Source of the DNA: Candidatus Sumerlaeota bacterium
GTDB lineage: Bacteria; Sumerlaeota; Sumerlaeia; JABWBI01
Length of the DNA stretch: 34,929 nt
Reading direction: 5' to 3'
NCBI GenBank assembly: GCA_016928695.1
Contig: JAFGKF010000046.1
Span: forward strand, 1-34,929
Shown here: positions 9,404-29,714 of the stretch, in pieces
Position numbering within the stretch: position 1 is the first letter of the stretch
Layout of the letters: each line of letters starts with the position of its first letter
Made by a program: the position numbers and the translations under genes
The notes under the pieces: generated by a model
Database searches by the model: none
The model's input: the letters and a program-made list of their open reading frames with translations, nothing else
Told to the model about the DNA's origin: nothing

Positions 9404-9431
9404 CTCTGTGATCTCCCTCCGATGTGTGGGA

Positions 9432-12940: not shown

Positions 12941-12980
12941 ATCTGTCAGCGATCTTCGAGTGTGCACAGGCGACCTGCAC

Positions 12981-13002
12981 AGTGTGGCGCACATGCCACA
13001 CT
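12981..13002. promoter_or_regulatory. Perfect dyad AGTGTGGC-N6-GCCACACT
   Basis: Eight-base arms are exact reverse complements around the spacer GCACAT, a layout typical of NtrC-family enhancer sites. The 13-mer GCCACACTCTGGC, which starts in the right arm (12995-13007), occurs again at 29755-29767 before the OTR-like cytochrome. A looser version, TGTGAC-N6-GCCACG, lies at about 14739-14756 before the large cytochrome operon. Confidence 0.55.
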
Positions 13003-13087
13003 CTGGCTCTGATTGGCCCCAGGAACCCCCGTTGGCGTGTGCCATTGGCGCATCATTTGGCCGCTCACTGATGTTTGGGGGTCACAG

Positions 13088-13214: not shown

Positions 13215-13258
13215 ATCCATTCCGGGGGATGCCGACTCTCGTCCCCAGGCCTGATCCG

Positions 13259-14786: not shown

Positions 14787-14819
14787 CCCCTGAGGTCACT
14801 CGGCTCTCTCTCTCAGGGG
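14787..14819 (+). other. Leader hairpin of the large cytochrome operon
   Basis: CCCCTGAG and CTCAGGGG pair over a 17-base loop rich in CT. It lies between the putative promoter and the first gene. A hairpin at the extreme 5' end could stabilise this long messenger (inference). Confidence 0.5.
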
Positions 14820-14904: not shown

Positions 14905-15333
14905 ATGGACGCGAGGTGTTCAATCCCACACATGGCCTCGCAGCCGCAGATTCTGATCTGGGCGGGTGACGCTCAGAGAGCCCAGTGCATCGAGGCGGCC
15001 CTCGGTGAGCTCCTGGAGAGCGGGGCGATCGTCTGCCATCACCAGCAGGCCCCCGAGGATGTGATCGCCGCCGTGCTCGACAGCCGCGCCGATCTGCTGA
15101 TCGCCGATCTCGGCGAGGTGGGGCCCCGCGGCGTGACCACGCTCAGGAGCTGTCGGCGCGTGTGCCCGAGGCTGCGGCTGATCGCGATCGCCACCGCTTT
15201 CAACGAGCACTTCCGCCGGGGCGTCTTGCCGCTGGGTGTCCATTTTTACCTGGCAACTGATTTCGTGGAGGAGGAGCTTCAGGAATCGGTCCGAAGCGCG
15301 CTGGGGCTCTCACCCCGCGGCGCCGCGCCCTGA
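14905..15333 (+). CDS. Degenerate receiver-like protein
   Basis: This encodes 142 residues. I start it at MDARCSIPH because AGGGTGAT precedes that ATG; MASQPQ at 14932 is a second option. The fold pattern of a CheY-like receiver is visible: a first strand ILIWAGD, then DLLIADLGEVGPRG with a possible phosphoacceptor aspartate, LRLIAIATA, and a last helix. However, the acidic pair is absent (WAGD) and the usual lysine position reads YLATDF. It has no output domain. It is the first gene of the twelve-gene cytochrome operon, 73 bases before the tetraheme gene. It may be a stand-alone regulator or adaptor; phosphorylation is doubtful. Function is unknown. Confidence 0.7.
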   Translation: MDARCSIPHMASQPQILIWAGDAQRAQCIEAALGELLESGAIVCHHQQAPEDVIAAVLDSRADLLIADLGEVGPRGVTTLRSCRRVCPRLRLIAIATAFNEHFRRGVLPLGVHFYLATDFVEEELQESVRSALGLSPRGAAP

Positions 15334-15406
15334 GCGCTGCGCCGCCGCCCGGAATCCGCAGCCTGTGCGCTGCCCCACCCCGAGGAAACAGAAGGAGAAA
15401 GGGATC

Positions 15407-16048
15407 ATGGAGAGGAGAGCCTGGAGAGCCCCCCGACGATTCATCTTGTCAGCGCTGACCTCTCTGGCCCTGGTCCCCCTGACCCAGGCCCAGATCACCG
15501 GATCAGCGCACGATCTGTCACCGCTCGACCCCGATCGACGTCTGTGCATCTTCTGCCACACACCGCACGGTGCCGACACCAGCGTGGCCGACGCCCCGCT
15601 GTGGAATCACGCGACGACGAATCAGAACTACGTGGTGTACGACAGCCCCACGCTCGACGCCACCGTCGGGCAGCCGGTCGGCGCCTCGCGCCTCTGCCTG
15701 AGCTGCCATGACGGGACAGTGGCGGTCGACGCCTTCGGGAGCTCACCGGGGAGCTTCTTCCTCGGGGGGCCGGGGGCCGTCGGCTCCGATGGACTTCTCA
15801 ACGACCACCCGATCAGCTTCCAGTACACCGACTCACTGGCGGTCCAGGACGGCGAGCTGCATCCGCCGTCGGTGACCTCCTCGCTGCTCGGCAGCACGAT
15901 CGACGACGATCTGCTCTTCAATGGGAGCATGGAGTGCAGCTCCTGCCACGACGTCCACCGTGGTCCCGCCGCCGCCGCCGTCAATGATGCCCTGCTGATG
16001 ATCCCGCAGACGGGGAGCACGCTCTGCCTGGTCTGTCACAACAAGTGA
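15407..16048 (+). CDS. Tetraheme cytochrome c, doubled-CxxCH type
   Basis: This encodes 213 residues. The start at MERRAWRAP follows GAAGGAGAAAGGG. A signal peptide (FILSALTSLALVPLTQA) precedes four heme sites: CIFCH, CLSCH, CSSCH and CLVCH. The sequence LCIFCHTPHG, then SRLCLSCHDGTVAVD and DHPISF, recurs in the N-terminal part of the 12-heme protein at 20835, so the two share a module. Such small tetraheme proteins usually shuttle electrons in the periplasm or on the cell surface. It stops six bases before the first NHL lipoprotein gene. Confidence 0.92.
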   Translation: MERRAWRAPRRFILSALTSLALVPLTQAQITGSAHDLSPLDPDRRLCIFCHTPHGADTSVADAPLWNHATTNQNYVVYDSPTLDATVGQPVGASRLCLSCHDGTVAVDAFGSSPGSFFLGGPGAVGSDGLLNDHPISFQYTDSLAVQDGELHPPSVTSSLLGSTIDDDLLFNGSMECSSCHDVHRGPAAAAVNDALLMIPQTGSTLCLVCHNK

Positions 16049-16054
16049 GCGGCG

Positions 16055-17155
16055 ATGTCATCCCATGCTCGCCGTCTGCTCGCCCTGAGCCTCTGCGCCC
16101 TGGCCGCCTGTGCGCGGGTGCCCGAGGAGCCTCCGCGGCCTCCGATTCTCTACCCCCCGCCGCCTGACGCCCCCCGGGTTCAGTATCTCACCTCCATCCG
16201 CTCGGTCACCGACATGCCCCGGGCCACCTCGCGCCTGGCCGACATCGTTCTGGGCCCGCCCGAGGAGGGAATGCGCGTCTGGAAACCCTACGGTGTGGCG
16301 ATGGCGGGGACGCACCTCTACATCTGCGACACGATCATCAACAACGTCCTCATCTTCGACTTCGCCGACGGAAGCGCGCGGAGCCTGAGCACCAACCTGG
16401 GCGCCGACGTCCTCCGCAATCCGATCAACATCGCGGTGGCAGACGATGGCACCAAGTATGTCGCGGACGCGCTGCGTGGGCAGGTGGTCGTCTTTGGCCC
16501 CGATGATCGCTATCAGACTGCGTGGGGCACCCCCGAGGAGATGACGCCCTGCGACGTCCTCGTCGTCGGCGACCGGCTCGCGGTGGCCGATCTCCTCGAC
16601 GATGAGATCGAGATCTGGGATCGCCGGACGGGCGAGCGGCTGTCCTCCTTCGGGGGCCCGGGCTCCGGACCCGGTCAGTTCCGCGCGCCGACGAATCTGG
16701 CGCTCTCACCCGACGGCACGCTGTGCGTCAGCGAGACGCACGGCTTCCGAGTGCAGCGTCTGACGCTCGAGGGCGACCCGATCCTGACCTTCGGGGAGAT
16801 CGGGACTGGCTTCGGGCAGTTCACGCGCCCCAAGGGGGTGGCGGTGGACCCCGCGGGGCGGATCTGCGTCGTCGACTCGGCCTTCTCCAACGTCCAGATC
16901 TTCACCGACTCCGGCGAGCTGCTCATGTTCTTCGGGGGAGCGGGCCCCAACGTCTCGAATCTCGACCTGCCCGCGGACATCGAGATCGTGACCGATCCCG
17001 TGTCGCTCGCGCTCTTCGAGCCGTTTGTCGCGCCGGGCCGCCACATCTCTCATCTGTTTCTCGTGTCGAGCCAATTCGGAGTGCCGCGGATCAACGTCTA
17101 CGGCTTCCTGGATGAGGGGGAGACCCCCACCGATCACGGCCGGCCGGTTCCATGA
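16055..17155 (+). CDS. NHL-repeat beta-propeller lipoprotein (1)
   Basis: This encodes 366 residues. The signal peptide ends in a lipobox (LAAC, Cys19), so the protein should be lipid-anchored. After a proline-rich linker (PPRPPILYPPPPDAP) come repeated blades typical of NHL proteins: KPYGVAM..LYICDT..NNVLIFD, NPINIAVADDGTKYVAD, APTNLALSPDGTLCVSET..FRVQRL and RPKGVAVDPAGRICVVDS..NVQIF. About six blades are expected. NHL propellers bind proteins or small ligands and have no heme of their own here. The gene lies between the tetraheme and pentaheme genes and overlaps the latter by four bases. A scaffolding role in the outer-membrane electron conduit is inference. Confidence 0.92.
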   Translation: MSSHARRLLALSLCALAACARVPEEPPRPPILYPPPPDAPRVQYLTSIRSVTDMPRATSRLADIVLGPPEEGMRVWKPYGVAMAGTHLYICDTIINNVLIFDFADGSARSLSTNLGADVLRNPINIAVADDGTKYVADALRGQVVVFGPDDRYQTAWGTPEEMTPCDVLVVGDRLAVADLLDDEIEIWDRRTGERLSSFGGPGSGPGQFRAPTNLALSPDGTLCVSETHGFRVQRLTLEGDPILTFGEIGTGFGQFTRPKGVAVDPAGRICVVDSAFSNVQIFTDSGELLMFFGGAGPNVSNLDLPADIEIVTDPVSLALFEPFVAPGRHISHLFLVSSQFGVPRINVYGFLDEGETPTDHGRPVP

Positions 17156-17760
17156 GAGCGGAGGGAGGCGATCAGCCGGAGAGAAGCGGCCACCGATGGT
17201 GGCGCTGGGCCCTGGCCGCGCTCGTCGTCTCGCTGATCGCCTGCTCCGCACAGACGCGTCATCGCATTCTCTCCACTCTCTTCGACGGTGTCCCCGAGCC
17301 GGGCGCCTCCGCCGCCCCTGAGCCGACCATGGCACGGCTGATGAATCCCGATGGCGCCGCGGCGGACTCCGTGATCGAGCGTGAGATCCATTGGACGTCG
17401 GTGCACAGACCCTATGCCCAGGGGGCCTGCGACGCCTGCCACCGGGGAGAGATCACCGAGGCGGTTGCGGCGCTCAGCGACGGCCAGTGCCTGAGCTGTC
17501 ACTCCACGGAGATGCTCTCGGGGGGGTGGGATCATGCCCCGGCGGCCCTTGGTCTCTGCAGCCTCTGCCATGTGGCGCACGTCTCGATGCACCCGGCGCT
17601 CCAGTCTCAGGCGCAGCCTGAGCTCTGCATCTCCTGCCACGCCGATCCCACGCTGATGACCTCCATCGAGGTGCACCGCGGCGCTGGGAATCAGCGCTGC
17701 ACGGCCTGCCACGATCCGCACCGCGGCTCGCCGGTGGCGCTGGGGAGTGGCGTGAGGTGA
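17152..17760 (+). CDS. Pentaheme cytochrome c lipoprotein
   Basis: This encodes 202 residues. A basic N-terminus and a hydrophobic stretch end at LIAC-S, a probable lipobox near residue 31. Five CxxCH sites follow: CDACH, CLSCH, CSLCH, CISCH and CTACH. The spacing of paired sites (LCSLCHVAHVSMH; CTACHDPHRGS) is of the cytochrome c3/doubled-CxxCH type. It overlaps the NHL gene before it (ATGA) and the barrel gene after it (GTGA). This position, directly before an outer-membrane barrel, suggests it is the heme partner threaded through or docked on the barrel, as MtrA is on MtrB; this part is inference. Confidence 0.9.
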   Translation: MRAEGGDQPERSGHRWWRWALAALVVSLIACSAQTRHRILSTLFDGVPEPGASAAPEPTMARLMNPDGAAADSVIEREIHWTSVHRPYAQGACDACHRGEITEAVAALSDGQCLSCHSTEMLSGGWDHAPAALGLCSLCHVAHVSMHPALQSQAQPELCISCHADPTLMTSIEVHRGAGNQRCTACHDPHRGSPVALGSGVR

Positions 17761-19772
17761 TCGGGAGGTCGTGCGCCAGCCCATGGCTGCTGTCCGCTCC
17801 CGGGGCTCTGCTGGCGCTGGCGCTGGCGCAGGGGATCGCCGCCCAGAATCACCGCGATCTGCGCCGGGTCGAGCCCCAGCCGTTCGCCGTGACCGACTGG
17901 GGGGGTGAGCTGGGCTTCGAGTTCATCTGGCGGCGGGAGGAGCAGACGTCGGACCGGGGCAATGATTTCTCCCGCGAGCTCCGGCGCTTCGAGGAGTGCA
18001 TCGAGCTGACCGCCGAGGGATTCGTCTATCACCCGCTCTTCATCGAGTACGACGCGCTGGTGCGGTTCGGACTGCTGCAGCACCGCTTCGAGGCGGACCC
18101 GGGCGACAGCGGATCGGACAATCTCTTTCTCAACGAGTACGACATCACCGTGCGCGTGCTCCAGGAGAAGCCGGTGAGCCTCCGGGTGCGCTCGCAGCGC
18201 CGCGACGACGTGGTGCGCGACCTGTTCAGCGACGTGATCGAGTTCGAGGAGATGTCCCACGGCATCGATGTGATCTTCACCAACTCGCTCATCCCCTCGC
18301 GCCTGAGCCTGACACACCGAGACTATGAGCAGCGGGGTTTCTCGTCGGACTCCGACTCCACGCTGGACACGGTGGAGTGGGTCTCGCACCTGCTGCCCGC
18401 ATCGCGTGCGCCGACCGACTTCCACTGGCTCCACCGCGACTACGGGGAGGACTTCACGGGCCGCAACAGCGGGATCACTCTGCGGCGGAGGACCGATCTG
18501 ACGAGCCACGACCTCAGCGCCACGAATGTCTGGCGCATCGACCGCGACGGGCGCCTGCGACTGACGACCTCGGGGCGGTTCTACGACCAGACGGGCTCGA
18601 CCGAGGTGCGTCAGTGGCGCGCCAGCGAGCGCCTGGACTATGAGATCACACCCCGTCTCGACAGCCACCTGAGCTACGCCTACGACCAGGTCGAGACCGA
18701 GGCCCAGACCACCCGGACACACCGCGCCCGGGCGGGGCTCCACCACCGCCTGTACGAGAGCCTCGACACCTTCGCGGAGGCCCGCTGGCGCAACACGTCG
18801 TTCGGCGGGGGGGATGATGAGACCTCGGTGGGGGGCGGCATCCGATTCGCCTATCGCAAGCGGACGCCGCGGGGCCTGCTGTCGGCGGGCTACAGCTTCG
18901 ACGTCGACCGGATCGACCGCGGCGCGGGGGGCACGAACCGCTCGGTGACGGATGAGCAGGTCGTGCTCCTCGACGGTGTGATCACGTTTCTCGAGCGCTC
19001 AGACATCCTGATCAACTCGATCGTCGTCTCCGACGTCACGGGCCTGATCGTCTATGTGCGCGACCTGGACTATCGCATCATCCCCGTGGGCGATCGCTTT
19101 CAGATCGAGCGGATCTTCGGCGGCGCGATCGCCAACGGCGAGCTGGTGCTGGTCGACTACACCTATTTCCAACCCGTGGACGTCGCCTACGTTCAGATCG
19201 CGCAGTCGTTCAATGTCCGCCACGACTGGCAGCGGGGGCTCCTGGAGGGCCTGGCGCTCCAATACCGCCTCGCGGACCTGCGCAGCTCGGGTGACACGGG
19301 GGGAATCGATCTGCTCGAGTTCACAAGCCACACCTTCGGGATGAACTATCGCTGGCGCTGGCTGGAGTGGATCGAGGAGGTCGAGATCTTCGACGCGAAC
19401 ATCTCCCCGCGTAATTCGCTGCGCAGCGCCCTCCACGCCCACTTCAGCCCCTGGCACCGGACCCGGGCGCGGGCGGGCATCGAGTATCTGATCATCGACT
19501 TCACCGACTCGGGGGAGGAGGACACCGATCTCCTGACGCTGAGCACCGACCTCCGCACGCAGCTCGGGCGCCGCACCGAGTGGGAGATCGAGGCGCTCTA
19601 CCGGGTGGAGCGTGGCCGCAACGACGAGGACAACTTCGGTGTCGCGAGCACCCTCCGCTGGGCCTGGCGACGCCTCACCGCCGAGGTCGGATTCCGCTGG
19701 GAGATCCGCGACCGCTCTGGCACGGAGCGTGATGACATCATAGCCTTTGTGGCGGTGACCCGTGAGCTCTGA
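17757..19772 (+). CDS. MtrB-like outer-membrane beta-barrel porin
   Basis: This encodes 671 residues with a GTG start inside the preceding stop (GTGA) and GGGGAG upstream. A signal peptide (LLALALAQGIAAQ) is followed by some twenty or more amphipathic strands, with alternating Arg/Glu/Asp and hydrophobic residues. Examples are PVSLRVRSQRRDDVV, RLRLTTSGRFYDQTG, SHLSYAYDQVE and LTAEVGFRWEIRDR. The last strand ends in FVAVTREL. Size and context, between a lipoprotein cytochrome and multiheme proteins, match the porin of porin-cytochrome complexes. No CxxC motif like that in the N-terminus of Shewanella MtrB is present. It would insulate the heme chain across the outer membrane. Confidence 0.87.
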   Translation: MIGRSCASPWLLSAPGALLALALAQGIAAQNHRDLRRVEPQPFAVTDWGGELGFEFIWRREEQTSDRGNDFSRELRRFEECIELTAEGFVYHPLFIEYDALVRFGLLQHRFEADPGDSGSDNLFLNEYDITVRVLQEKPVSLRVRSQRRDDVVRDLFSDVIEFEEMSHGIDVIFTNSLIPSRLSLTHRDYEQRGFSSDSDSTLDTVEWVSHLLPASRAPTDFHWLHRDYGEDFTGRNSGITLRRRTDLTSHDLSATNVWRIDRDGRLRLTTSGRFYDQTGSTEVRQWRASERLDYEITPRLDSHLSYAYDQVETEAQTTRTHRARAGLHHRLYESLDTFAEARWRNTSFGGGDDETSVGGGIRFAYRKRTPRGLLSAGYSFDVDRIDRGAGGTNRSVTDEQVVLLDGVITFLERSDILINSIVVSDVTGLIVYVRDLDYRIIPVGDRFQIERIFGGAIANGELVLVDYTYFQPVDVAYVQIAQSFNVRHDWQRGLLEGLALQYRLADLRSSGDTGGIDLLEFTSHTFGMNYRWRWLEWIEEVEIFDANISPRNSLRSALHAHFSPWHRTRARAGIEYLIIDFTDSGEEDTDLLTLSTDLRTQLGRRTEWEIEALYRVERGRNDEDNFGVASTLRWAWRRLTAEVGFRWEIRDRSGTERDDIIAFVAVTREL

Positions 19773-20838
19773 GCCCAGACCCCGCCGCCGGTGGACCCGG
19801 GCACTCGGGGTGAGCCTCGCCCTGGCCCTCGCCCTGTCGCTCAGCATGTGCGCCCGCCGTGGCCCGTCGGGCCCGAGAGCGGACGCGTCCCTCGACATGG
19901 TCTGGCCCGCGCCGCCCGAGCCCCCACGCGTGCGCCTGCTGCAGATTGTCGAGTCCCCCCAGGACCTGATCGCCGGTGGGGGGCTCTGGGCAGGGCTCCA
20001 GTCGATCGTGGCTGGCGAGCCGACCGAGCGCCTGGCCACGCCGAGCGCCCTGGCGGTGAATGAGTCTCTCGGTCTGGTGGTGGCGGATCCCGGTGTGCCG
20101 GGCGTGCACATCTTCGACTGGGTGAGGGACGAGTATCACCTGGTCCAGGGTGATGACGAGCACCCCCTCGTCTCCCCCGTGGGCGTGGCGATCACACCCG
20201 ACGGCGTGATCTGCGTGAGCGACTCCGCCCGCGGGGCCATCGTGCTGATCTCGGCGGACGGCGAAATCACCGGTGAGATCACCGACCCCGGCCGGCTTCT
20301 CCGGCCCGCCGGCCTCGCCTTCGATCCCGAGAGCCGGGAGCTGATCGTCGTCGACGTTCTCGCGCACGGCCTGAAGCGCTACACACTAGGCGGTGTGATG
20401 ACGCTGTCGTGCGGTGGCCAGGGGATCGAGCCGGGGCAGTTCAACTTCCCAACCCATCTCTTCCGAATGGCGGACGGTCGACTCGTGGTGACCGACTCGC
20501 TCAACTTCCGCCTCCAGGTGCTCAGCTCCACGGGACAGCCCCTGGCGATGATCGGCAGGCTGGGTGATGCCCCCGGCTGCCTGGCGCGGCCGAAGGGTGT
20601 GGTGGCCGACAGCGAGGGCAACATCTGGGTCGTCGACGCCCAGTTCGAGAACATCCAGGTCTTCGATCCGGTGGGACAGCTCTTGCTTCACTTCGGCGGT
20701 GCGGGTCAGGCGCCTGGCCAATTCTGGCTCCCGGCGGGGCTCGCGATGGATGGTGAGAACCGCCTCTTCGTCGCCGACACGCACAACCGCCGCGTTCAGA
20801 TCTTCCAGTGCATGCCTGGACCCGAGGTGATGCCATGA
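19762..20838 (+). CDS. NHL-repeat beta-propeller lipoprotein (2)
   Basis: This encodes 358 residues. The GTG start lies within the end of the barrel gene (11-base overlap). The signal peptide ends at a lipobox-like LSMC (Cys30), followed by Arg-rich residues. NHL-type blades are clear: TPSALAVNESLGLVVAD, SPVGVAITPDGVICVSDS, RPAGLAFDPESRELIVVD, FPTHLFRMADGRLVVTDS, RPKGVVADSEGNIWVVDA..NIQVFD and LPAGLAMDGENRLFVADTHNRRVQIF. It is a paralog of the propeller at 16055 with the same pattern of lipid anchor and proline linker (PAPPEPPRVR). It is translationally coupled to the 12-heme gene (ATGA). It probably sits at the outer membrane beside the barrel. Confidence 0.92.
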   Translation: MSSEPRPRRRWTRALGVSLALALALSLSMCARRGPSGPRADASLDMVWPAPPEPPRVRLLQIVESPQDLIAGGGLWAGLQSIVAGEPTERLATPSALAVNESLGLVVADPGVPGVHIFDWVRDEYHLVQGDDEHPLVSPVGVAITPDGVICVSDSARGAIVLISADGEITGEITDPGRLLRPAGLAFDPESRELIVVDVLAHGLKRYTLGGVMTLSCGGQGIEPGQFNFPTHLFRMADGRLVVTDSLNFRLQVLSSTGQPLAMIGRLGDAPGCLARPKGVVADSEGNIWVVDAQFENIQVFDPVGQLLLHFGGAGQAPGQFWLPAGLAMDGENRLFVADTHNRRVQIFQCMPGPEVMP

Positions 20839-22517
20839 GAGTCGACGTGAGACCCCACTGGTCCCCGCTGATGGTGACGGCAATCACTCTGCTCGCGGCC
20901 CTCCCCTCCGCGTGGGCGGGGCTGAGCGTTGTCGACTCGCCCCACAACCTCTCGGTGACGGGGCCGGGGCCCATCCACGCGATCAGCGAGGATCGGATCT
21001 GCATCTTCTGCCACACACCGCACGGCAGCCGCACCTCGGCGCCGCTCTGGAACCGGAACGACTCGACCGCCTCGTACCAGCCCTATGAGAGCTCGTCGCT
21101 CGACGCCGCCCCGGGGCAGCCGACGGGCACCTCGAAGCTCTGCCTCTCCTGCCACGACGGAACCATCGCGCTCGGTCAGCTGGTCTCGACGTTTCAGGTG
21201 ATCCCCATGACGGGCGGCGTCACCACACTGCCGCCGGGCCACGGGCTGATCGGAACGGATCTGCGCGACGATCACCCGATCTCGTTCGTGCCCGTCCTCG
21301 GCAATCCCGAGCTGGCGCCGCCCTCGGCCTGGGGCGAGGCCCTGAGGCTCGACGCCCTCGGGGAGTTCCAGTGCACGACGTGCCACGATCCCCACGACAA
21401 CGTCTACGGCGACTTCCTCACGATGGACAACACGGACGGGGCGATGTGTCTGGTCTGCCACACTCTGACCGGCTGGCCCAGCGCCTCGCACGCCGACGCT
21501 CGCCTCAGCGCGGTGGTGCTGCCCCAGCACATCGGTCCCATCCCCGGTGGGTGCGCCGTCTGCCACGTCCCCCACGGGGCAGGCTTCCCCCCGCTGCTGC
21601 GCGGAGCGTCCGCGGACGAGGCGGTCTGCCTCGCCTGCCACAGCGGCAATGACCCGAGCGCCCCCAACATCGCCGCGGCGCTGCGTCTGCCATCGGGGCA
21701 CTTCGTCGACCGCCACCGCGGGGAGCACCGCGCGGACGAGTCGCCGAGCGAGGCGGCGACCCACGCCACGTGCGTCGACTGCCACAATCCCCACCGCTCG
21801 ATGAATCGGCCGTCGCGCGACGCACTGGTGATCAGCGGTGCCCTGGAGGGCGTGCGCGGTGTGACGCTCTCCGGCATCGAGGTGGACGAGGTGCAGTTCG
21901 AGTATGAGCTCTGCCTGCGATGCCACAGCGGGCGCCAGGCCGAGCCGTGGGGCTTCCCCGTGCGGCGTCAGCTCGAGCAGTTCGACCTCGCCCGCGAGAT
22001 CGATCCCGGCAATCCGTCGTTCCATCCCATCGCTGCGCCGGGCCAGAATCCCGACGTCCCGAGCCTCCTCCCGCCGCTGACGGAGGGGAGCCAGATCCAG
22101 TGCACGGACTGCCACAGCGGAGGGCAGAGCGGTGTGGCGGGACCTCACGGATCGATGCACGACGGACTCCTGGCCGGGGAGAACCAGACGGGCACGGGGG
22201 TGAGCGAGAGCCCGCGCGCGTATGAGCTCTGCTATCAGTGCCACAGCCGCTCGAGCATCCTCGCCGACCAGAGCTTCCCCGAGCACCGGCTTCACATCGT
22301 CGAGGCGCAGGCGACGTGCTCGGCCTGCCACGATCCCCACGGTGTCAGTCTCACCCAGGGCGACCCGATGAATCACACGCACCTGATCAACTTCGACATC
22401 TCCGTTGTCGACCCCGATCCCACGTCGGGGCGCAGGGAGTTCGTCGACATGGGAACGCAGGCGGGCACCTGTTATCTCACCTGCCACGGGCGCGTCCACG
22501 GGCCGGAGGGGTACTGA
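20835..22517 (+). CDS. Dodecaheme cytochrome c
   Basis: This encodes 560 residues. The start at MRVDVRPHW overlaps the preceding stop and follows GAGGTGAT. A signal peptide (LLAALPSAWA) precedes eleven CxxCH sites (CIFCH, CLSCH, CTTCH, CLVCH, CAVCH, CLACH, CVDCH, CLRCH, CTDCH, CYQCH, CSACH) and a terminal CxxxCH (CYLTCH), giving twelve predicted hemes. Its first part repeats the module of the tetraheme protein at 15407 (ICIFCHTPHG, KLCLSCHDGT, DHPISF). The rest continues with paired CxxCHxPH units. There is no lipobox and no membrane helix, so it is a soluble periplasmic or secreted protein. It lies between two NHL genes. Confidence 0.93.
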   Translation: MRVDVRPHWSPLMVTAITLLAALPSAWAGLSVVDSPHNLSVTGPGPIHAISEDRICIFCHTPHGSRTSAPLWNRNDSTASYQPYESSSLDAAPGQPTGTSKLCLSCHDGTIALGQLVSTFQVIPMTGGVTTLPPGHGLIGTDLRDDHPISFVPVLGNPELAPPSAWGEALRLDALGEFQCTTCHDPHDNVYGDFLTMDNTDGAMCLVCHTLTGWPSASHADARLSAVVLPQHIGPIPGGCAVCHVPHGAGFPPLLRGASADEAVCLACHSGNDPSAPNIAAALRLPSGHFVDRHRGEHRADESPSEAATHATCVDCHNPHRSMNRPSRDALVISGALEGVRGVTLSGIEVDEVQFEYELCLRCHSGRQAEPWGFPVRRQLEQFDLAREIDPGNPSFHPIAAPGQNPDVPSLLPPLTEGSQIQCTDCHSGGQSGVAGPHGSMHDGLLAGENQTGTGVSESPRAYELCYQCHSRSSILADQSFPEHRLHIVEAQATCSACHDPHGVSLTQGDPMNHTHLINFDISVVDPDPTSGRREFVDMGTQAGTCYLTCHGRVHGPEGY

Positions 22518-23422
22518 TGCGCCGCGGCCTCTGGATCATCGCCGCCGTGTTCGCTCTCACCGTGGGGGAGGTGTGCGCCGCCGTTCCCCTTGTGGGGTGC
22601 GAGCCCGCCGGTGTGCTCGAGCCCTCCGGCGATCTCGCGCTCGTCATGCCCAGCGCCGCGATGGAGATGGCCGATGGCCGATGGGCCATTCTCGATGGCG
22701 TCAGCGACCGCATTGTGTTCACCGACGCCGAGGGGCATGGGCTCTCGAGCATCGGTGAGAGTGTTCTCAGCTCGCCACTCGGGCTGACGCTGGATGACGA
22801 GGATCTCCTCTGGGTGGCCGACAGCGGCAATCGCCGCGTCGTCGCGCTGACCCCGGAGGGGGATCTGGTCGGGGACTATCCCCGCCCCGATGATCCCGCG
22901 TTCGACCCCGTGGATCTGGCATTCGATCGCGATGGCTCGACGCTCCTCGTCGTGGACAACGACGGGCACCGCGTCGTGAGCCTCGACACGGAGACCGGCC
23001 AGTGGGGGGAGGTCTGGGGAGAGTACGGCGAGGGATTCGACCAGTTCAATCACCCCTTCTCCATCGACGTCTCCGCCACGGGGCGGCGTGCGGTGGTCGA
23101 CGTTCTCAACAGCCGCCTGATGATCCGCGACCCGTCGTTCGACTTCACCTTCGAGATCCGCGACTGGGGCGTCGACGCGGGGCAGCTCTATCGCCCGAAG
23201 GGCGTGGCGATCGACAGTGGGGGTCGGATCTTCGTCTCGGACAGTGTGCTGGGTGTCGTCCAGGTCTTCGATGCCGGCGGTCTCCTGGTCGGCGTCCTGG
23301 CCGACGGCGATGAGGTGCGTCACCTGCGCACGCCCACGCGCCTCAGCCTCGGCCGGCAGGGGCGGCTCGCGGTCGTCGAGATGCGCGCCAATCGCATCTC
23401 GCTCTGGGATGTGGAGCCATGA
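22517..23422 (+). CDS. NHL-repeat beta-propeller protein (3)
   Basis: This encodes 301 residues. Its ATG overlaps the preceding stop (TGATG), with GGAGGGG five bases upstream; the longer ORF in the track is not used. The signal peptide (LWIIAAVFALTVGEVCA) lacks a good lipobox, unlike the other two propellers, so it is probably soluble. Blades include SPLGLTLDDEDLLWVADSGNRRVVAL, DPVDLAFDRDGSTLLVVD, HPFSIDVSATGRRAVVDVLNSRLMI and RPKGVAIDSGGRIFVSDS..VVQVFD. It lies between the 12-heme and 24-heme genes and is coupled to the latter (ATGA). This repeats the cytochrome-propeller alternation seen earlier in the operon. Confidence 0.9.
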   Translation: MRRGLWIIAAVFALTVGEVCAAVPLVGCEPAGVLEPSGDLALVMPSAAMEMADGRWAILDGVSDRIVFTDAEGHGLSSIGESVLSSPLGLTLDDEDLLWVADSGNRRVVALTPEGDLVGDYPRPDDPAFDPVDLAFDRDGSTLLVVDNDGHRVVSLDTETGQWGEVWGEYGEGFDQFNHPFSIDVSATGRRAVVDVLNSRLMIRDPSFDFTFEIRDWGVDAGQLYRPKGVAIDSGGRIFVSDSVLGVVQVFDAGGLLVGVLADGDEVRHLRTPTRLSLGRQGRLAVVEMRANRISLWDVEP

Positions 23423-26091
23423 GGCGAGGGGCGCTCATCTCCGCTCTTCTCCTGGCGACCGTGGCCGGTCTGCCGGGCCAGACGGCGGACTCCTCCCGTG
23501 AGTGCGCGATCTGCCACATCACGTGGATGTCGACCTTCCTCGACGAGCAGCGCGACGCCGATCTGATGGCGATGCCCGAGGGCCCGATGGTCAACGACGA
23601 GGACATGTGCTTCTCGTGCCACGACGGCTCCATCGACGATGCGCGCGAGCTCGTCTTCCTGGAGCATGGCCACCGGACGGGCATCACCCCGGATGACGGG
23701 ATGACTGTTCCCCGGGAGCTGCCCCTCGATTCGCAGGGTCAGATCCTGTGCGCCACATGCCACACCGCCCACCGCGTCGATCCCCACTCGGCGGACGATC
23801 GCATCTCCTTCTTCCTGCGCATGCCCAATCCCAACTCCGAGCTCTGCATGGCCTGCCACGGGGAGAACGCGGAGCACGCGGGCGCGCGCAACCACCCCAT
23901 CGGCGTCGATGTGGAGGGGGACTGGCCCCCGGAGCTCACCGAAGCCCTCGGCATGCGCGGCCGCGATCACGATGTGACCTGCCAGTCGTGTCACGCACCC
24001 CATGGCTCGGGGCTGAGCGATCTCCTCGTGATGCCGGTGGGGCAGAGTGAGCTCTGCACCACCTGCCACAGCGGGCACCTCGCCGCGGGTGCGGGCGAGT
24101 GGCCCCCGAGCCACCCGGTCAACCTGATCCCTGAGGAGGGGACGGACATCCGCCGCCTCGTCGAGCACGGCGGCCGCCTGGGTGAGGGGGGACGCGTCGT
24201 CTGTCTCTCGTGCCACAGCACGCACCGGGGAGTGGCCGACGGTGGCGTTCTCGTGATGGACAATCGCGACGACGCGCTCTGCCTGCTCTGCCACGATGAG
24301 ATGACGAGCCTCGGTCACACGCCCCATGCGTTGGCCTCGACTGCCTCTGAGCTCTCGAATGTCCAGGGACGTCCCGCGGCCAGCGCGGGGAGCTGCTCGG
24401 GTTGCCATCTGCCCCACGGGGCGATGGGTCCGATGCTCTGGGCGCGGGAGCCCGAGCCGGGCGCGAGGGGGCAGGCGGCACTGTGTCTCTCATGCCACAG
24501 TGGAGCCCACGGTGACGACATTCCTTCACTGACGAATGTCAATCACCCGCGCGACATCGCTCTGCCCGCGGGCATGGGCAGTGGCTCACTGCCGCTCTTC
24601 GGCGCCGACCTGCATCCGAGCACTGAGGGGAACCTGGTCTGCTCGACGTGTCACCTGATCCACGATCTCCGCGAGGGCGCGGCGATCTCGCAGGGCGCGG
24701 AGGCCACTCTCCGCCTGGACAATGCCGGTGATCAGCTCTGCCGGCAGTGTCACGGGGCGGAGTGGGACACGGTGAGCGGCGGCCACCACGACCTGACCGC
24801 GATGCAGGGGCAGGGGCTCTGCTCGCAGTGTCACACGGTTCACCGAGGATTCGGCCCCCACATCTGGTCGCGACCTCTCGGCGCGGGTGATGCCCCGGCC
24901 GAGCAGCTCTGCGGCTCCTGCCACGGCGATCCTCACATGGCGGAGGCCTCGCCGCCGTCGAATCATCTCCATCCCGTGGCCGGGGGATCGCCCGCGATGG
25001 GCGAGGGCTCCGTCGTCCCGCTCTTCAACCGCGCGTCGGCTCAGCGAGATGCTGAGGGGGCGATGACCTGCCTCTCCTGCCACGATGCTCACCATCTGCC
25101 GCGCGATGCGACGGAGGCGACGCGGCTCTCCACGCGCGGGGAGTCGCCGCTCTGCCGGTCCTGTCACTCCGAGGCGGCGGCGCTGCGCGAGAGCGCTCAC
25201 GGCAGGGTCGCCTTGCAGATGGGCGACACCTGCGGCGCCTGTCACCGTTTCATCGACGAGGATGGGAGCGGCGTGCGATTCGGCACGGCTGGCGCGATCG
25301 CCGAGTCGGGCGACGCTCTCAACTCGCTCTGCCTGACCTGCCACGCCTCGGGGCATCGCATGCTCGATGCGCATCCGCTCGCCGAGGCCTTGGACCTGGA
25401 GGTTCAGCCCGCGCATCTGCCGCTCTTCGACGCCACCGGGGAGCGCAGCGACGAGGGCCACATGACCTGCGCGACCTGCCACGAGCCCCACGGCTTCCAT
25501 GCGGAGGGCGATCTGCTCCGCCCCGCCGAGGGCGACGACCCCGCGCTGTGCACCGACTGCCACCGTGCTCAGCGGTCGGTCGCGGGGACGGATCACGATC
25601 TCCGCATCACGGCCCCCGGGACCGAGAACCAGTGGGGCCAGCGGGCGGAGGACGGCACGGTGTGCAGCGCATGCCACACCGCTCACCCCCGCGAGCCGAT
25701 GCCGCTGCTGTGGGGAGGTCCACTGGGCGAGGGCGCGGACTTCGTCTCGCGCACCTGCACGGGGTGCCACCGCGAAGGCGGGGCCGCGCGCCCCGTCCCC
25801 CATGCGACACCGAGGCATCCGGAGACGGCCGTGGCCTTCTGGCTGGAGGGCGGGGCCTCGGGCGACGGGGCCATCACCTGCGCCACCTGCCACGATGCGC
25901 ATCACTGGGGGGCGGAGCCACCAGGTGTTGACAGTGAGGGGGATCTTCTGACCAGCTTCCTGCGGCGAGGTGTGGCGGCCCAGATCTGCTCCCAGTGCCA
26001 CGGGCGCGAGGCGATGGTCCGGCACTTGCTCTTCCACCGGGGGCAGAGATGGGGACAGTCGGCTCTCGTCCCCCGGGAGACTGACCAGTGA
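23419..26091 (+). CDS. 24-heme cytochrome c built from tetraheme modules
   Basis: This encodes 890 residues with a signal peptide (ALISALLLATVAGLPGQ) and no anchor. I count 24 CxxCH sites, from CAICH near residue 29 to CSQCH near the end. A unit of about 140 residues repeats. Each copy starts with a PLF- or LGEGG-type lead and a CxxCHxxH pair, for example GNLVCSTCHLIH, GAMTCLSCHDAHH, GHMTCATCHEPHG and GAITCATCHDAHH, followed by an LCxxCH and a second pair. The leads fall near residues 97, 247, 389, 531, 665 and 804. This gives five full tetraheme modules with half-modules at both ends. It is probably an extended heme wire, periplasm-spanning or extracellular. It is coupled to the NHL gene before it and to the membrane cytochrome after it. 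Confidence 0.93.
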   Translation: MRRGALISALLLATVAGLPGQTADSSRECAICHITWMSTFLDEQRDADLMAMPEGPMVNDEDMCFSCHDGSIDDARELVFLEHGHRTGITPDDGMTVPRELPLDSQGQILCATCHTAHRVDPHSADDRISFFLRMPNPNSELCMACHGENAEHAGARNHPIGVDVEGDWPPELTEALGMRGRDHDVTCQSCHAPHGSGLSDLLVMPVGQSELCTTCHSGHLAAGAGEWPPSHPVNLIPEEGTDIRRLVEHGGRLGEGGRVVCLSCHSTHRGVADGGVLVMDNRDDALCLLCHDEMTSLGHTPHALASTASELSNVQGRPAASAGSCSGCHLPHGAMGPMLWAREPEPGARGQAALCLSCHSGAHGDDIPSLTNVNHPRDIALPAGMGSGSLPLFGADLHPSTEGNLVCSTCHLIHDLREGAAISQGAEATLRLDNAGDQLCRQCHGAEWDTVSGGHHDLTAMQGQGLCSQCHTVHRGFGPHIWSRPLGAGDAPAEQLCGSCHGDPHMAEASPPSNHLHPVAGGSPAMGEGSVVPLFNRASAQRDAEGAMTCLSCHDAHHLPRDATEATRLSTRGESPLCRSCHSEAAALRESAHGRVALQMGDTCGACHRFIDEDGSGVRFGTAGAIAESGDALNSLCLTCHASGHRMLDAHPLAEALDLEVQPAHLPLFDATGERSDEGHMTCATCHEPHGFHAEGDLLRPAEGDDPALCTDCHRAQRSVAGTDHDLRITAPGTENQWGQRAEDGTVCSACHTAHPREPMPLLWGGPLGEGADFVSRTCTGCHREGGAARPVPHATPRHPETAVAFWLEGGASGDGAITCATCHDAHHWGAEPPGVDSEGDLLTSFLRRGVAAQICSQCHGREAMVRHLLFHRGQRWGQSALVPRETDQ

Positions 26092-27245
26092 GAGGGCGAA
26101 TGCGAGCAGCCTTGGCAGCGGCGGTGGCCTCCCTGGTGGCCGTCTCCGCTCTCGCCGAGCTCGACGATGAGTCGTGCCTCCTCTGTCATCAGTACGACGG
26201 TCTCGCCTTCAGCGGGGCCGAGGGCGAGCCCATTCACCACTTCGAGGTCGACCCCGATCTCTGGCTCCAGAGCGTCCACGGGGGCGTCGCCTGCCGCGAC
26301 TGCCACCGCGACGTGCAGGAGCTTCCCCACGGAGCCGTGGAGCGGGTCAACTGCGCGGTGACCTGCCACGTGCTGGATCCCTCGACGAACCGCCCCTTCA
26401 CGCACGCCCCTGAGATCGGCCGCTTCGAGTCGAGCGTTCACGGCGCGGGGCGGGCGGATGATCCGTATCCCGAGGATCGCCCCACGTGTCTCGACTGCCA
26501 TCAGAACCGCCTCTTCGCGGCGCATGAGGGGGCGTGGGGCGCCACCGATCAGCTCGTCCAGGAGACGCTCGTCCGATGCCGCGGGTGCCACCAGGATCCC
26601 GCATGGAGCGAGTACGTTCTCTCCCACGTGATGCACCGCATGCGTCGCCGCCGTCCCCCCGAGGAGGTGGTTCAGCTCTGCACCTCCTGCCATGAGGACG
26701 TCGAGCGCATGGCGCGCCACGGTCTCGTCCCGATGTGGGACTTCCGCGACTCCTTCCACTGGCGGATGATTCTGCTCGGCGATCCCGACGCGCCCGACTG
26801 CCTCTCGTGCCATGTGCCCGTCGGCTACTCGGCCCACGAGATCCACCACCGCGACGATCTGCGCTCGGCCATCAACGTCGAGAATCTGCGGGCGACGTGC
26901 AGCAACCCCGGCGGCGCGCAGCGGTGCCACACCGGTGCGACGCAGGCGTTCGCCGAGGCGCGCATCCACTTCTCGGATCGCCGCGCCTTCGAGATCATGC
27001 AGGACGAGTCGCTCGATCCGGATGTCCGCGCGCTTCTCGCTCAGCGCATCGAGAACCAGGAGGCCTTCATGCGCGCCGACGAGTTCCGGTTCTGGATCCT
27101 GGGGCTGATCAGCCTCCTCTACAAGGTGATGATCGGCGCCGTCATCGGCGGGATGATGGTCCACCAGATCCTCGACTTCATCGCCCAGCTGCGTCTGCGC
27201 AGGCGAAAGGCCCGCGCGCGGGTCGGTGTGGGAGGTGACGCCTGA
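26088..27245 (+). CDS. Inner-membrane multiheme cytochrome c
   Basis: This encodes 385 residues from GTG inside the preceding stop (GTGA); ATG at 26100 is a good alternative. A signal peptide (ALAAAVASLVAVSALA) precedes six CxxCH sites (CLLCH, CRDCH, CLDCH, CRGCH, CTSCH, CLSCH) and one CxxxCH (CAVTCH). An eighth possible site has eight residues between the cysteines (CSNPGGAQRCH). A membrane helix near the C-terminus (FWILGLISLLYKVMIGAVIGGMMV) is followed by a basic tail (LRLRRRKARARV), so the hemes face the periplasm. With the cytochrome b encoded next (TGATG overlap) it resembles a split form of the CbcL-type quinol-oxidising cytochromes. Confidence 0.9.
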   Translation: MRGRMRAALAAAVASLVAVSALAELDDESCLLCHQYDGLAFSGAEGEPIHHFEVDPDLWLQSVHGGVACRDCHRDVQELPHGAVERVNCAVTCHVLDPSTNRPFTHAPEIGRFESSVHGAGRADDPYPEDRPTCLDCHQNRLFAAHEGAWGATDQLVQETLVRCRGCHQDPAWSEYVLSHVMHRMRRRRPPEEVVQLCTSCHEDVERMARHGLVPMWDFRDSFHWRMILLGDPDAPDCLSCHVPVGYSAHEIHHRDDLRSAINVENLRATCSNPGGAQRCHTGATQAFAEARIHFSDRRAFEIMQDESLDPDVRALLAQRIENQEAFMRADEFRFWILGLISLLYKVMIGAVIGGMMVHQILDFIAQLRLRRRKARARVGVGGDA

Positions 27246-27997
27246 TGGCCACGGCGCCCACCATCCCCAGCCATCCCATGGATGATCACGAGCTCGTCTT
27301 CGTCCGGCTCAACAAGCACGAGCGCGCGCAGCACGTGCTCTTCTTCGTCTCCTTCCTCCTCCTGGCGGTGACCGGCTTCACGCTGCGGCTGCCCGAGGAC
27401 TGGATGCGCCGCCTGGGTGAGATCGGCATGGGCTACGAGGCGCGCAGTCTGGTCCACCGCGCGGCGGGGATCGTGATGATCCTGGTGAGCCTGGCGCACA
27501 TCTACTACGTCCTCTTCATCCGCGAGGGCCGCGAGTGGCTGCGCGACATCTTCCTCCGCCCGAGCGACATCGGCGAGGGGTTCCGCAACGTTCAGTTCTA
27601 CCTGGGGCTTCGCCGCGATCCCCCGCGCTTCGGCCGCTTCAACTACAAGGAGAAGATGGAGTACTGGGCGCTGTTCGTCGGCAACACGCTGATGTCGATC
27701 ACCGGCCTGATGATGATGTTCGAGTATCTCTGGCCCCAGCTGGCGCTCGACATCGCCGCCCTGGTCCACCGCATGGAGGCGATCCTCGCCTGCCTGGCCA
27801 TCATCGTCTGGCACATGTATGAGGTGCACCTGCGCCCCGGCCGCTTCCCCCACAGCCTCGTCTGGTTCCACGGGCTCATGGACGAGGAGGAGATGGAGGA
27901 GGAGCACCCGGCGCACCTGGAGGAGCTGAAGAGGCGGGGTGGCAGCCGCGTTCTCCGCATCCACCGCGAGCGGCCCGAGGGGGGCGATCATGAGTGA
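27245..27997 (+). CDS. Cytochrome b (b561/FdnI-type) membrane subunit
   Basis: This encodes 250 residues with GGGAGGTGA before the overlapping start. Four membrane helices are clear: HVLFFVSFLLLAVTGFTL, AAGIVMILVSLAHIYYVLF, YWALFVGNTLMSITGLMMMF and MEAILACLAIIVWHMYEVHL. Histidines H30, in VHRAAG and AHIYY, and in VHRMEA and WHMYEVH could bind two b-type hemes, as in the FdnI/HydC family. The C-terminal tail is very acidic (MDEEEMEEEH). Its likely role is to oxidise menaquinol and pass electrons to the flanking membrane-bound cytochromes c. It overlaps the next gene by eight bases. Confidence 0.92.
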   Translation: MATAPTIPSHPMDDHELVFVRLNKHERAQHVLFFVSFLLLAVTGFTLRLPEDWMRRLGEIGMGYEARSLVHRAAGIVMILVSLAHIYYVLFIREGREWLRDIFLRPSDIGEGFRNVQFYLGLRRDPPRFGRFNYKEKMEYWALFVGNTLMSITGLMMMFEYLWPQLALDIAALVHRMEAILACLAIIVWHMYEVHLRPGRFPHSLVWFHGLMDEEEMEEEHPAHLEELKRRGGSRVLRIHRERPEGGDHE

Positions 27998-28793
27998 GCC
28001 GAGGCATCCCCGCGCCGCCTGCCAGACGTGGATCGCATGCCTGATGTGGCTGCTGGGCTATCCCATGGCCGTCCTCTTCTTCGTGCTCACCGTCTGGCTC
28101 ATCTATCTCCTCTACTTCGACAGGAGCTGGGAGGAGGCGATGATCAGCCGCCACACACGGCGCGAGACCCACGCCGCCGATCAGGCGCAGATCGAGGCGC
28201 GCCGCAGCCAGTTCCACATCCAGATCCCCTACTCGCTCGACACGCTCGTGGATCCGCCCGTCTGCGTCACCTGCCACACCGCCTATCCCCACAGCGAGAA
28301 CACGCGGACGCGGGCCTACCTCAACGCCCATGGCACGCACCTGGCCTGCGAGACATGCCATCATCGACCCGATGCGTCCGAGGAGATCGTGTATCGCTGG
28401 ATCGACGACTCGACCGATCAGATCGTCTCCTCGGTCACCGGCTCCCGCGGCGTCTACGGCGCCCACGTCTATCCCTGCCGCGTCGGCAGCGGCGAGCAAC
28501 TTCGGCGCATGGGCAAGCGCGTCAGCGAGCCCGAGTGGGGCGCGCTGGCCGAGCGCGCGGAGGGCCTGACCCTCGAGCAGCGCCGCGCCATCTGCGATCC
28601 CGCGCACGACGAGCTCCAGGGCGAGCCGATCGGATGCTCCGAGTGCCATCGACCCGACGGGCCGCTCGACTTCGCTGCGCTCGGACACGGCGAGCGCATG
28701 GCGCAGCGGCTCGAGAATCTGGAGGTCGTCCAGATGCTCGAGAGCGCCGCGGAGTTTCATTTCCCTGACATCCGAGGGACCCGGAGCCCCTGA
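27990..28793 (+). CDS. Membrane-anchored triheme cytochrome c
   Basis: This encodes 267 residues from MSEPRHPRA; the ORF-track start lies inside the cytochrome b gene. One uncleaved helix (LLGYPMAVLFFVLTVWLIYLLYF) anchors it with the remainder in the periplasm. Three CxxCH sites are present: CVTCH and CETCH, about 35 residues apart, and CSECH near the C-terminus. About 110 residues without heme sites separate the last two. Extra histidines (HTAYPHSENT, CHHRPD) could be distal ligands. Gene overlap ties it to the cytochrome b and the multiheme membrane cytochrome, so the three probably form one inner-membrane complex. I do not recognise the family more closely. Confidence 0.85.
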   Translation: MSEPRHPRAACQTWIACLMWLLGYPMAVLFFVLTVWLIYLLYFDRSWEEAMISRHTRRETHAADQAQIEARRSQFHIQIPYSLDTLVDPPVCVTCHTAYPHSENTRTRAYLNAHGTHLACETCHHRPDASEEIVYRWIDDSTDQIVSSVTGSRGVYGAHVYPCRVGSGEQLRRMGKRVSEPEWGALAERAEGLTLEQRRAICDPAHDELQGEPIGCSECHRPDGPLDFAALGHGERMAQRLENLEVVQMLESAAEFHFPDIRGTRSP

Positions 28794-28805
28794 GTCGGAC
28801 GTCCC

Positions 28806-29714
28806 ATGAGGCTCCTCCGCTCATCCGCAGCCGCTCTCATCGCCCTGACGCTGGGCACATGGCCGGGCGTCACCCAGCCGCCTTCGGCTGTGCCATCCGC
28901 CAACCTTCCCCCCAATCCCCACTGGCGCTCCGGGGAGTGCTCGCTCTGCCACGGCGAGGGGGAACCCGCGAGCATTTCCGCGCCCGACTGGGAGGCGGTC
29001 TGTGCGAGGTGCCATGATCTCGAGAGCATTGGAGCGCAGGTCCACCCCTTCGGCTTCGAGCCTGGGGCACTCCTTGACCGGATGATGTCGAACGGCGTGC
29101 CGCTGGCCGATGGCCTGCTCACATGCGCCTCCTGCCACGATCTGCGTCCCCACTGTCGGCTCGACCGCGACGCGCAGTCCTCCAATCCCGCCATGCTGCG
29201 AGGCCCCGGTGGGGGCGATGTGGTCTCGCTGTGCTTCCAGTGTCACGACGAGGAGCCCTTCATCCGGCGCGATCCCCATGTGCAGGTCCGAGCCGACGGC
29301 TCGCCGATGGAGGACAAGTGCCTGATGTGCCATGAGGCGAGCCCAGGGGGGACGATGGACCGCTCGCTGCGGGCACCCGCCGCGGTCATCTGCGCCGCGT
29401 GCCACGTGCTGGAGAATCACCCGCAGGGATTCGATCACGCTCTCACCGCCGACGCGGAGACCGTGCGCGCCATGGTGCGGGCGGAGATCGGCGACACCCT
29501 GAGTGGCATGACCCCGAGCCAGATGGACCGCTACATGGCGATGCACTCCCTCCAGCCACGTCGGCTGCCGCTGGGTGAGAACCGGGAGATCACCTGTTTC
29601 ACCTGCCACGATCCCCACGACCCTCGCCTCCCCGAATTCGAGGGGGCCGAGAGGCATGCGCATCGCCTCCGAATGGACTCCGCGGCGCTGTGTTTGGCCT
29701 GTCATGAGATGTGA
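28806..29714 (+). CDS. Octaheme cytochrome c, periplasmic
   Basis: This encodes 302 residues with a signal peptide (SAAALIALTLGTWPGVTQ). Eight CxxCH sites are present: CSLCH, CARCH, CASCH, CFQCH, CLMCH, CAACH, CFTCH and CLACH. This is about one heme per 38 residues, a density typical of cytochrome c3-like electron carriers rather than enzymes. It begins 12 bases after the triheme gene, the only clear gap in the second half of the operon, with a weak ribosome site. It may carry electrons from the inner-membrane complex to the outer-membrane complex. The substrate or partner is inferred from position only. Confidence 0.9.
   Translation: MRLLRSSAAALIALTLGTWPGVTQPPSAVPSANLPPNPHWRSGECSLCHGEGEPASISAPDWEAVCARCHDLESIGAQVHPFGFEPGALLDRMMSNGVPLADGLLTCASCHDLRPHCRLDRDAQSSNPAMLRGPGGGDVVSLCFQCHDEEPFIRRDPHVQVRADGSPMEDKCLMCHEASPGGTMDRSLRAPAAVICAACHVLENHPQGFDHALTADAETVRAMVRAEIGDTLSGMTPSQMDRYMAMHSLQPRRLPLGENREITCFTCHDPHDPRLPEFEGAERHAHRLRMDSAALCLACHEM

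Follow-up and report, generated by a model that had tools for sequence, protein, structure and literature searches.

Does a single block of genes encode a complete route for electrons from the quinol pool to the exterior of the cell? The question is raised by twelve genes, here called B to M, on the + strand of a metagenome-assembled genome (MAG) of Candidatus Sumerlaeota (positions 15407-29714). The window, i.e. the whole stretch of DNA analysed, is the entire contig C341 with 34,929 bases; the genome (G000) comprises 4.17 Mb and is 92.8% complete. We propose that the block is probably a two-cassette locus for extracellular electron transfer, a quinol-to-exterior conduit that possibly ends in a filament of the OmcE type. 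Comparison with other genomes divides it into two conserved cassettes, one for the outer membrane (B-C-D-E-F-G) and one for the inner membrane (J-K-L-H-I plus M). The observations on which the proposal is built are the gene content, the homologies, the conservation of the cassettes, natural gene fusions and a predicted barrel.

Read 5' to 3', the block encodes a tetraheme cytochrome, an NHL protein, a pentaheme cytochrome, a barrel, a second NHL protein, a 12-heme cytochrome, a third NHL protein, a 24-heme and a 7-heme cytochrome, a cytochrome b, a triheme and an octaheme protein. The c-type heme motifs of its cytochromes number 4, 5, 12, 24, 7, 3 and 8 (63 in sum), compared with a mean of 0.02-0.44 motifs per protein in composition-matched shuffled proteins. 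Two cytochromes outside the block add another 17, which gives 80 for the window and agrees with the approximately 80 sites counted in an earlier, sequence-only reading of this DNA. That reading had described cytochromes with 4, 5, 12 and 24 hemes, three NHL propellers and a barrel, followed by an inner-membrane multiheme protein, a cytochrome b, a triheme anchor and an octaheme protein. Gene calls, Pfam/NCBIfam (NHL, cytochrome b and multiheme domains) and an AlphaFold2 model of the barrel bear out this series, the latter part corresponding to J (7 hemes), K, L (3 hemes) and M (8 hemes). Its statement that most neighbours share stop and start bases holds as well: using the best start codons (ATG at 20835, 22517 and 27990), neighbouring genes from B to M overlap by 1-11 bases at 9 of 11 junctions, the only others being B-C (+6) and L-M (+12). 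Lipoboxes are found on C, D and F, signal-peptide-like N-termini on B, G, H, I and M, and membrane anchors at the C-terminus of J and the N-terminus of L. Sigma-70-like patterns match twice in the region (0.7 in shuffles) and terminator-like patterns three times (3.0 in shuffles). These numbers are about equal to those of the shuffles, hence no clear separation of the block genes by promoters or terminators is indicated.

The outer-membrane cassette starts with B (15407..16048), a secreted tetraheme cytochrome of the OmcE family with four heme motifs, which is similar to UetA of the undecaheme electron transfer (Uet) cluster. C (16055..17155) is an NHL propeller lipoprotein (NHL repeats 3.8e-11, lipobox LAAC). 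D (17152..17760) is a pentaheme lipoprotein with five CxxCH motifs and the lipobox LIAC, resembling part of MtrA (chain 6r2q_A, E=3.7e-10). E (17757..19772) is a predicted outer-membrane beta-barrel similar to UetC. Its AlphaFold2 model (predicted local distance difference test, pLDDT, 92.1) has some 28-29 long strands and, at 405-475, an insert, and 67 homologues of at least 600 residues occur in the loci fetched. Above the cut-offs no curated Pfam or NCBIfam family was assigned to E. Foldseek gives alike scores for many barrel families, MtrB ranking third with a TM-score of 0.35, so that no structural family was assigned either. F (19762..20838) is a second NHL propeller lipoprotein (NHL 2.9e-25, lipobox LSMC). 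The cassette ends with G (20835..22517), a UetJ-like 12-heme cytochrome (11 CxxCH and one CxxxCH) sharing 46-50% identity with eight Sumerlaeota relatives. Apparent 12-heme proteins of 860-930 residues in six other loci (L069, L071, L078, L087, L095, L183) were considered as fusions and rejected: their extra 300-340 residues match no NHL and are read as an over-extension of the open reading frame across the overlapping F gene.

OmcE is a tetraheme nanowire subunit of Geobacter that polymerises. The family profile of B (A8) matches it over the full length (7TFS, E=3.6e-42; 9YUQ, 3.7e-40). Moreover, the four heme motifs of OmcE are conserved in B together with four candidate distal histidines (HDxS, TPH, NDHP and CHxVH), and on both counts, full-length tetraheme homology and conserved candidate ligands, B belongs to the OmcE family. 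In OmcE itself the interfacial heme is ligated by one histidine of the adjacent subunit (review, PMC12954529). The relationship extends to G: the profile of its family (A1) matches 7TFS with 3.5e-39, and the G sequence alone with 1.4e-24 over residues 15-208, which is the first third of the protein; this part of G is homologous to 9YUQ as well. OmcE is devoid of the eight further hemes that G carries. In a tree, B-type proteins and the N-terminal domains of G-type proteins fall into two distinct, supported clades, neither of which includes OmcE. Two Geobacterales genomes encode a protein that is probably orthologous to OmcE (identity to 7TFS 54% and 40%); the OmcE loci, L222 and L225, have the order resB, ccsA, 11-heme protein, 8-heme protein, NHL, OmcE. 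Common to those loci and the present one are an NHL gene, here inside the block, and resB/ccsA, here just upstream; they differ in that the two Geobacterales genomes examined have no barrel there. The shared NHL gene suggests that NHL proteins accompany OmcE-type nanowires in general. A tentative extension, to which we would give somewhat less than even weight, is that B polymerises extracellularly on the OmcE-like head of G while the other eight hemes of G lead through or into barrel E, making the block a complete quinol-to-nanowire machine. G would then be the missing adaptor between a nanowire and an outer-membrane conduit, with an inner-membrane quinol oxidase in the same operon. The charging of cytochrome nanowires by the cell and their junction to the outer membrane are an open question (PMC10954620).

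The genes towards the 3' end make up the inner-membrane cassette. H (22517..23422) is a third, secreted NHL propeller (NHL 1.6e-14) and I (23419..26091) a cytochrome with 24 CxxCH motifs, whose homologues with 16-24 hemes occur in Gammaproteobacteria, Nitrospirota, Desulfobacterota, Planctomycetota and Sumerlaeota. An AlphaFold2 model of I was discarded (pLDDT 46). J (26088..27245) is a 7-heme cytochrome (6+1 motifs) that has a C-terminal transmembrane anchor and is a relative of the CbcL c-type part. K (27245..27997) is a diheme-type cytochrome b of the FdnI/CbcL family with a predicted quinol site (Pfam PF01292, 5.8e-14; FdnI 1KQF_C, 4.6e-12). L (27990..28793) is a triheme cytochrome (three CxxCH) with one transmembrane segment as N-terminal anchor. 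M (28806..29714) is a secreted cytochrome with eight CxxCH motifs and a predicted periplasmic carrier; its homologues adjoin G or J in four loci (L020, L181, L182 and L184).

CbcL is an inner-membrane quinol oxidoreductase of Geobacter which oxidises menaquinol during metal respiration. The profile of J scores 113 bits against a Geobacterales CbcL-type protein and 26-40 bits against CbcA-type proteins. Likewise, the profile of K scores 202 bits against the CbcL-type b domain and 22-28 bits against CbcB-type proteins (domain composition and gene order served to assign the comparison proteins to CbcL or Cbc5). With only such remote similarity and scores far below those of CbcL, Geobacter Cbc5/CbcBA was rejected as parent of J-K. 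Hence the idea of a porin-type and a Cbc-type module in one coupled block needs a correction in its second half: both modules are present, the quinol module being split and related to CbcL rather than to Cbc5/CbcBA. Natural fusions join J with K in four planctomycete genomes, H with I likewise in four planctomycete genomes, and K with L in Desulforhopalus (L138) and in L101. No other sequence evidence speaks as strongly for one complex of J-K-L and a second of H-I, and the fusions also lend support to the inner-membrane cassette as a unit. In L093 (14030-14946) K is split over two reading frames, either by a sequencing error or as a broken gene.

How far the cassettes are conserved was evaluated by scanning named genomes with the 12-heme profile. 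At least 567 relatives were found, and the following counts refer to the best 80 loci. The respective records belong to Planctomycetota, Nitrospirae, Verrucomicrobia, Bacteroidetes, Calditrichota, Gemmatimonadales, Acidobacteria, Gammaproteobacteria, Desulforhopalus, Myxococcales and others. Near G, the barrel is found in 67 loci, F in 68, C in 58, B in 55 and D in 47, many loci being cut by contig ends. Despite these cuts BCDEFG is intact in 23 of the 80. Few parts of the block are as well conserved in its relatives as the barrel and the OmcE-like proteins. By these comparisons the outer-membrane cassette recurs in about ten phyla.

Within Sumerlaeota the barrel is present in 12 of 40 genomes. 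Most of these show B-C-D followed by three other genes, P, Q and X, and then E-F-G. P is a CbcL-like fused protein (10-11 hemes plus cytochrome b), Q a 14-heme protein and X a secreted protein which looks thioredoxin-like by eye. The window and one further genome, G012, carry J, K, L, H, I and M in place of the usual P/Q/X. In G012 (L020) both quinol modules, P with the 14-heme Q as well as J-K-L, lie together with the conduit in a single run. In a phylogeny of 42 b domains, CbcL and the Uet-linked P proteins are neighbours (100/99) and K falls elsewhere in the family; long branches make the finer branching uncertain. The K of the window clusters with Desulforhopalus and proteobacterial sequences, that of G012 with another set. 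B and G of the window, by contrast, cluster with other Sumerlaeota sequences, which speaks somewhat against a contaminant contig in a MAG with an estimated contamination of 3.5%. The outer-membrane cassette therefore looks resident and the quinol cassette exchangeable.

Both cassettes are linked in the two Sumerlaeota genomes G000 and G012, in L093 and L101, in Desulforhopalus sp. IMCC35007 (L079 and L138) and in a gammaproteobacterium (L075 and L139). A UetJ-like protein occurs in 12 of 369 sampled Gammaproteobacteria, and the inner-membrane cassette or its start lies beside the UetJ-like gene in 7 of the 9 gammaproteobacterial loci examined. The combination is thus less singular than the sequence-only reading had assumed when it called it unusual. 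Three gammaproteobacterial loci (L181, L182, L184) share the complete collinear order B-C-E-F-G-M-J-K-L-H-I. Elsewhere the blocks are permuted, namely B-C-D-E-F-G-H-I-J-K-L-M in the window, J-KL-H-I-M-B-C-D-E-F-G in Desulforhopalus and B-C-D-E-F-G-x-J-KL-H-I-M in L101. The synteny that the earlier reading had proposed as a check is found for each cassette, and for their linkage in three phyla, but not for a constant order. The fixed-stoichiometry machine of that reading is not supported, as other genomes have the cassettes in another order, exchanged or apart from each other, and B is homologous to the polymerising OmcE. Taken together, these sequences show a two-cassette combination that is recurrent and modular and apparently has no name yet.

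Several points weigh against a single conduit. Genomes of Nitrospirota (L147, L148) and Planctomycetota (L149-L152) have both cassettes, but not on one contig, and the inner-membrane cassette is not near most outer-membrane cassettes. D is absent from the gammaproteobacterial arrays and is hence not indispensable. As far as modelling goes, the structural comparison does not single out MtrB for E, and the fold of I gave no usable model. As a side observation, the Nitrospiraceae MAG locus L148 holds two tandem J-K-L-H-I cassettes from two different K clades.

The unlinked cassettes speak for a different view, in which a Uet-type conduit and a separate respiratory module are independent neighbours that are co-regulated and exchange no electrons directly. 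The frequent pairing of the outer-membrane cassette with the other quinol module (P with Q) and the different clades of the K proteins in the window and G012, which make the inner-membrane cassette exchangeable, fit this view too. Repeated linkage in permuted order in three phyla, however, is hard to explain without functional coupling, and we therefore consider independence of the two modules rather unlikely.

For a coupled conduit, complex formation, the order and direction of electron flow, filament formation and the role of the NHL proteins are drawn from family knowledge and conserved linkage. K would oxidise menaquinol on its two b hemes and pass the electrons to the anchored J (7 hemes) and L (3 hemes). 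Across the periplasm they may be ferried by M (8 hemes) and by I (24 hemes), the latter together with propeller H. Barrel E together with the MtrA-like D and the 12-heme G would provide the passage through the outer membrane. Outside, the electrons would be taken up by the OmcE-like B, which may form a filament that starts from the OmcE-like head of G; a role of the NHL lipoproteins C and F in assembly or docking is probable.

The same chain could run in the opposite direction, taking up electrons from Fe(II), a cathode or another cell and delivering them to quinone so that the cell lives as a lithotroph; for Uet this has been proposed in Tenderiales and Gallionella. Uet is discussed in the literature as an electron-uptake route, multiheme chains can work in both directions, and the genome encodes a cbb3-like heme-copper oxidase, so that oxygen could be the acceptor. 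On the other hand, the quinol module is closest to CbcL, a menaquinol oxidiser, and RuBisCO, the one CO2-fixation route covered by the search, was not found in the 92.8% complete genome. For both reasons export is the more likely direction, and uptake we judge rather unlikely.

Two further multiheme cytochromes are encoded in the window outside the block, a nine-heme secreted protein (4291-6444) and N, a secreted octaheme cytochrome (29949-31793) located 234 nt downstream. N matches TIGR04315, an octaheme tetrathionate reductase family, at 126 bits, which is below the cut-off, and is related to cytochromes of the tetrathionate/nitrite reductase type. This might hint at a periplasmic chain ending on a soluble acceptor, for instance via N, with the barrel in another role. 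N lies outside the coupled block, though, and the barrel and the OmcE-like proteins belong to what is best conserved in the relatives; a chain of this kind is very improbable. All 11 Paired_CXXCH matches of the genome fall on the window contig, hence all multiheme capacity detected in the MAG comes from that contig.

Directly upstream of the block lies A (14932..15333, + strand), a receiver-like protein of 133 residues ending 73 nt before B; 14932 is its best start, the in-frame 14905 being possible. The sequence-only reading had counted A, as a pseudo-receiver, into the machine. The open reading frame is there, yet its match to Pfam Response_reg is weak (5.6e-4; 20.5 bits, cut-off 30.2). If real, A is likely regulatory, and it is probably not part of the electron-transfer machine. 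Receiver-like open reading frames of about 135 residues also stand directly upstream of the tetraheme gene in other Sumerlaeota (L023, 12757-13161; L025, 8161-8589), and those in L025 (E 3e-4) and L023 (E 0.016) are weak relatives of A. Moreover, genes for System II cytochrome c maturation (ccsA, resB), a histidine kinase and sigma-54 activators lie next to the block on its upstream side (6561-13045 and 2173-3570 on the - strand, 13256-14689 on the + strand). Regulators and ccsA/resB-like genes of similar kind occur near many related loci. As a candidate sigma-54 promoter of the block only a weak site was seen (GGGAATGGGATTTGCG at 14817). The 44 high-scoring sigma-54 sites in the window are fewer than in mononucleotide shuffles (56-67), and such a promoter is therefore not claimed. 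Two good -24/-12-like sites (3703 and 4190) lie upstream of the nine-heme gene, the window having no overall excess.

How does the locus compare with known systems? CbcL combines a multiheme c-type part with an FdnI-like cytochrome b, as do J and K. It is a single chain with 9 hemes, whereas J and K are encoded by two genes with 7 hemes and an additional triheme anchor (L), and K branches apart from CbcL in the tree; in Planctomycetota the 7-heme form also occurs fused. In Cbc5/CbcBA loci (PMC11434368, PMC7726332), too, a 7-heme c-type protein is the neighbour of a b-type cytochrome, and a sigma-54 activator and a 12-heme protein are encoded close by. The Cbc5-type loci examined contain neither a barrel nor an NHL gene, and their 12-heme protein is not a homologue of G. 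With MtrCAB and other porin-cytochrome complexes the block shares an outer-membrane barrel gene beside multiheme cytochromes, including the MtrA-like D. It differs from them in that a quinol module is encoded in the same block, and barrel E has no sequence similarity to MtrB.

The searched literature, which did not extend to the original Uet and OmcE-structure papers, holds no description of the J-K-L-H-I cassette, of its linkage to Uet or of a relationship of UetA/UetJ to OmcE; priority is not established thereby. The Uet cluster is known from Ca. Tenderia and Gallionella (PMC10734462, PMC13386937) and comes closest to the outer-membrane cassette, the comparison being made by described gene content. 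An 11-12-heme cytochrome, a tetraheme cytochrome, a beta-barrel porin and two NHL proteins stand in one cluster in both cases. G, with its 12 motifs and a very large homologous family, takes the place of UetJ, and B, E, C and F, which are syntenic across phyla, take those of UetA, UetC and UetH/I. A Uet-like order is also seen in the homologous loci L187 and L188. The peptidylprolyl isomerase UetB and the triheme proteins UetD/E/G were not found in the outer-membrane cassette, which has the pentaheme lipoprotein D instead and is thus a Uet-like variant rather than a strict member. What the block has beyond the Uet-type set is a cassette on the quinol side, a 24-heme protein and a third NHL protein. 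J-K-L-H-I supplies markers by which extracellular electron transfer tied to quinol can be traced in uncultured phyla. In one place the block encodes a nanowire-type cytochrome, a 12-heme protein that also has this domain, a barrel and a quinol oxidase, and these parts are found again in several phyla.

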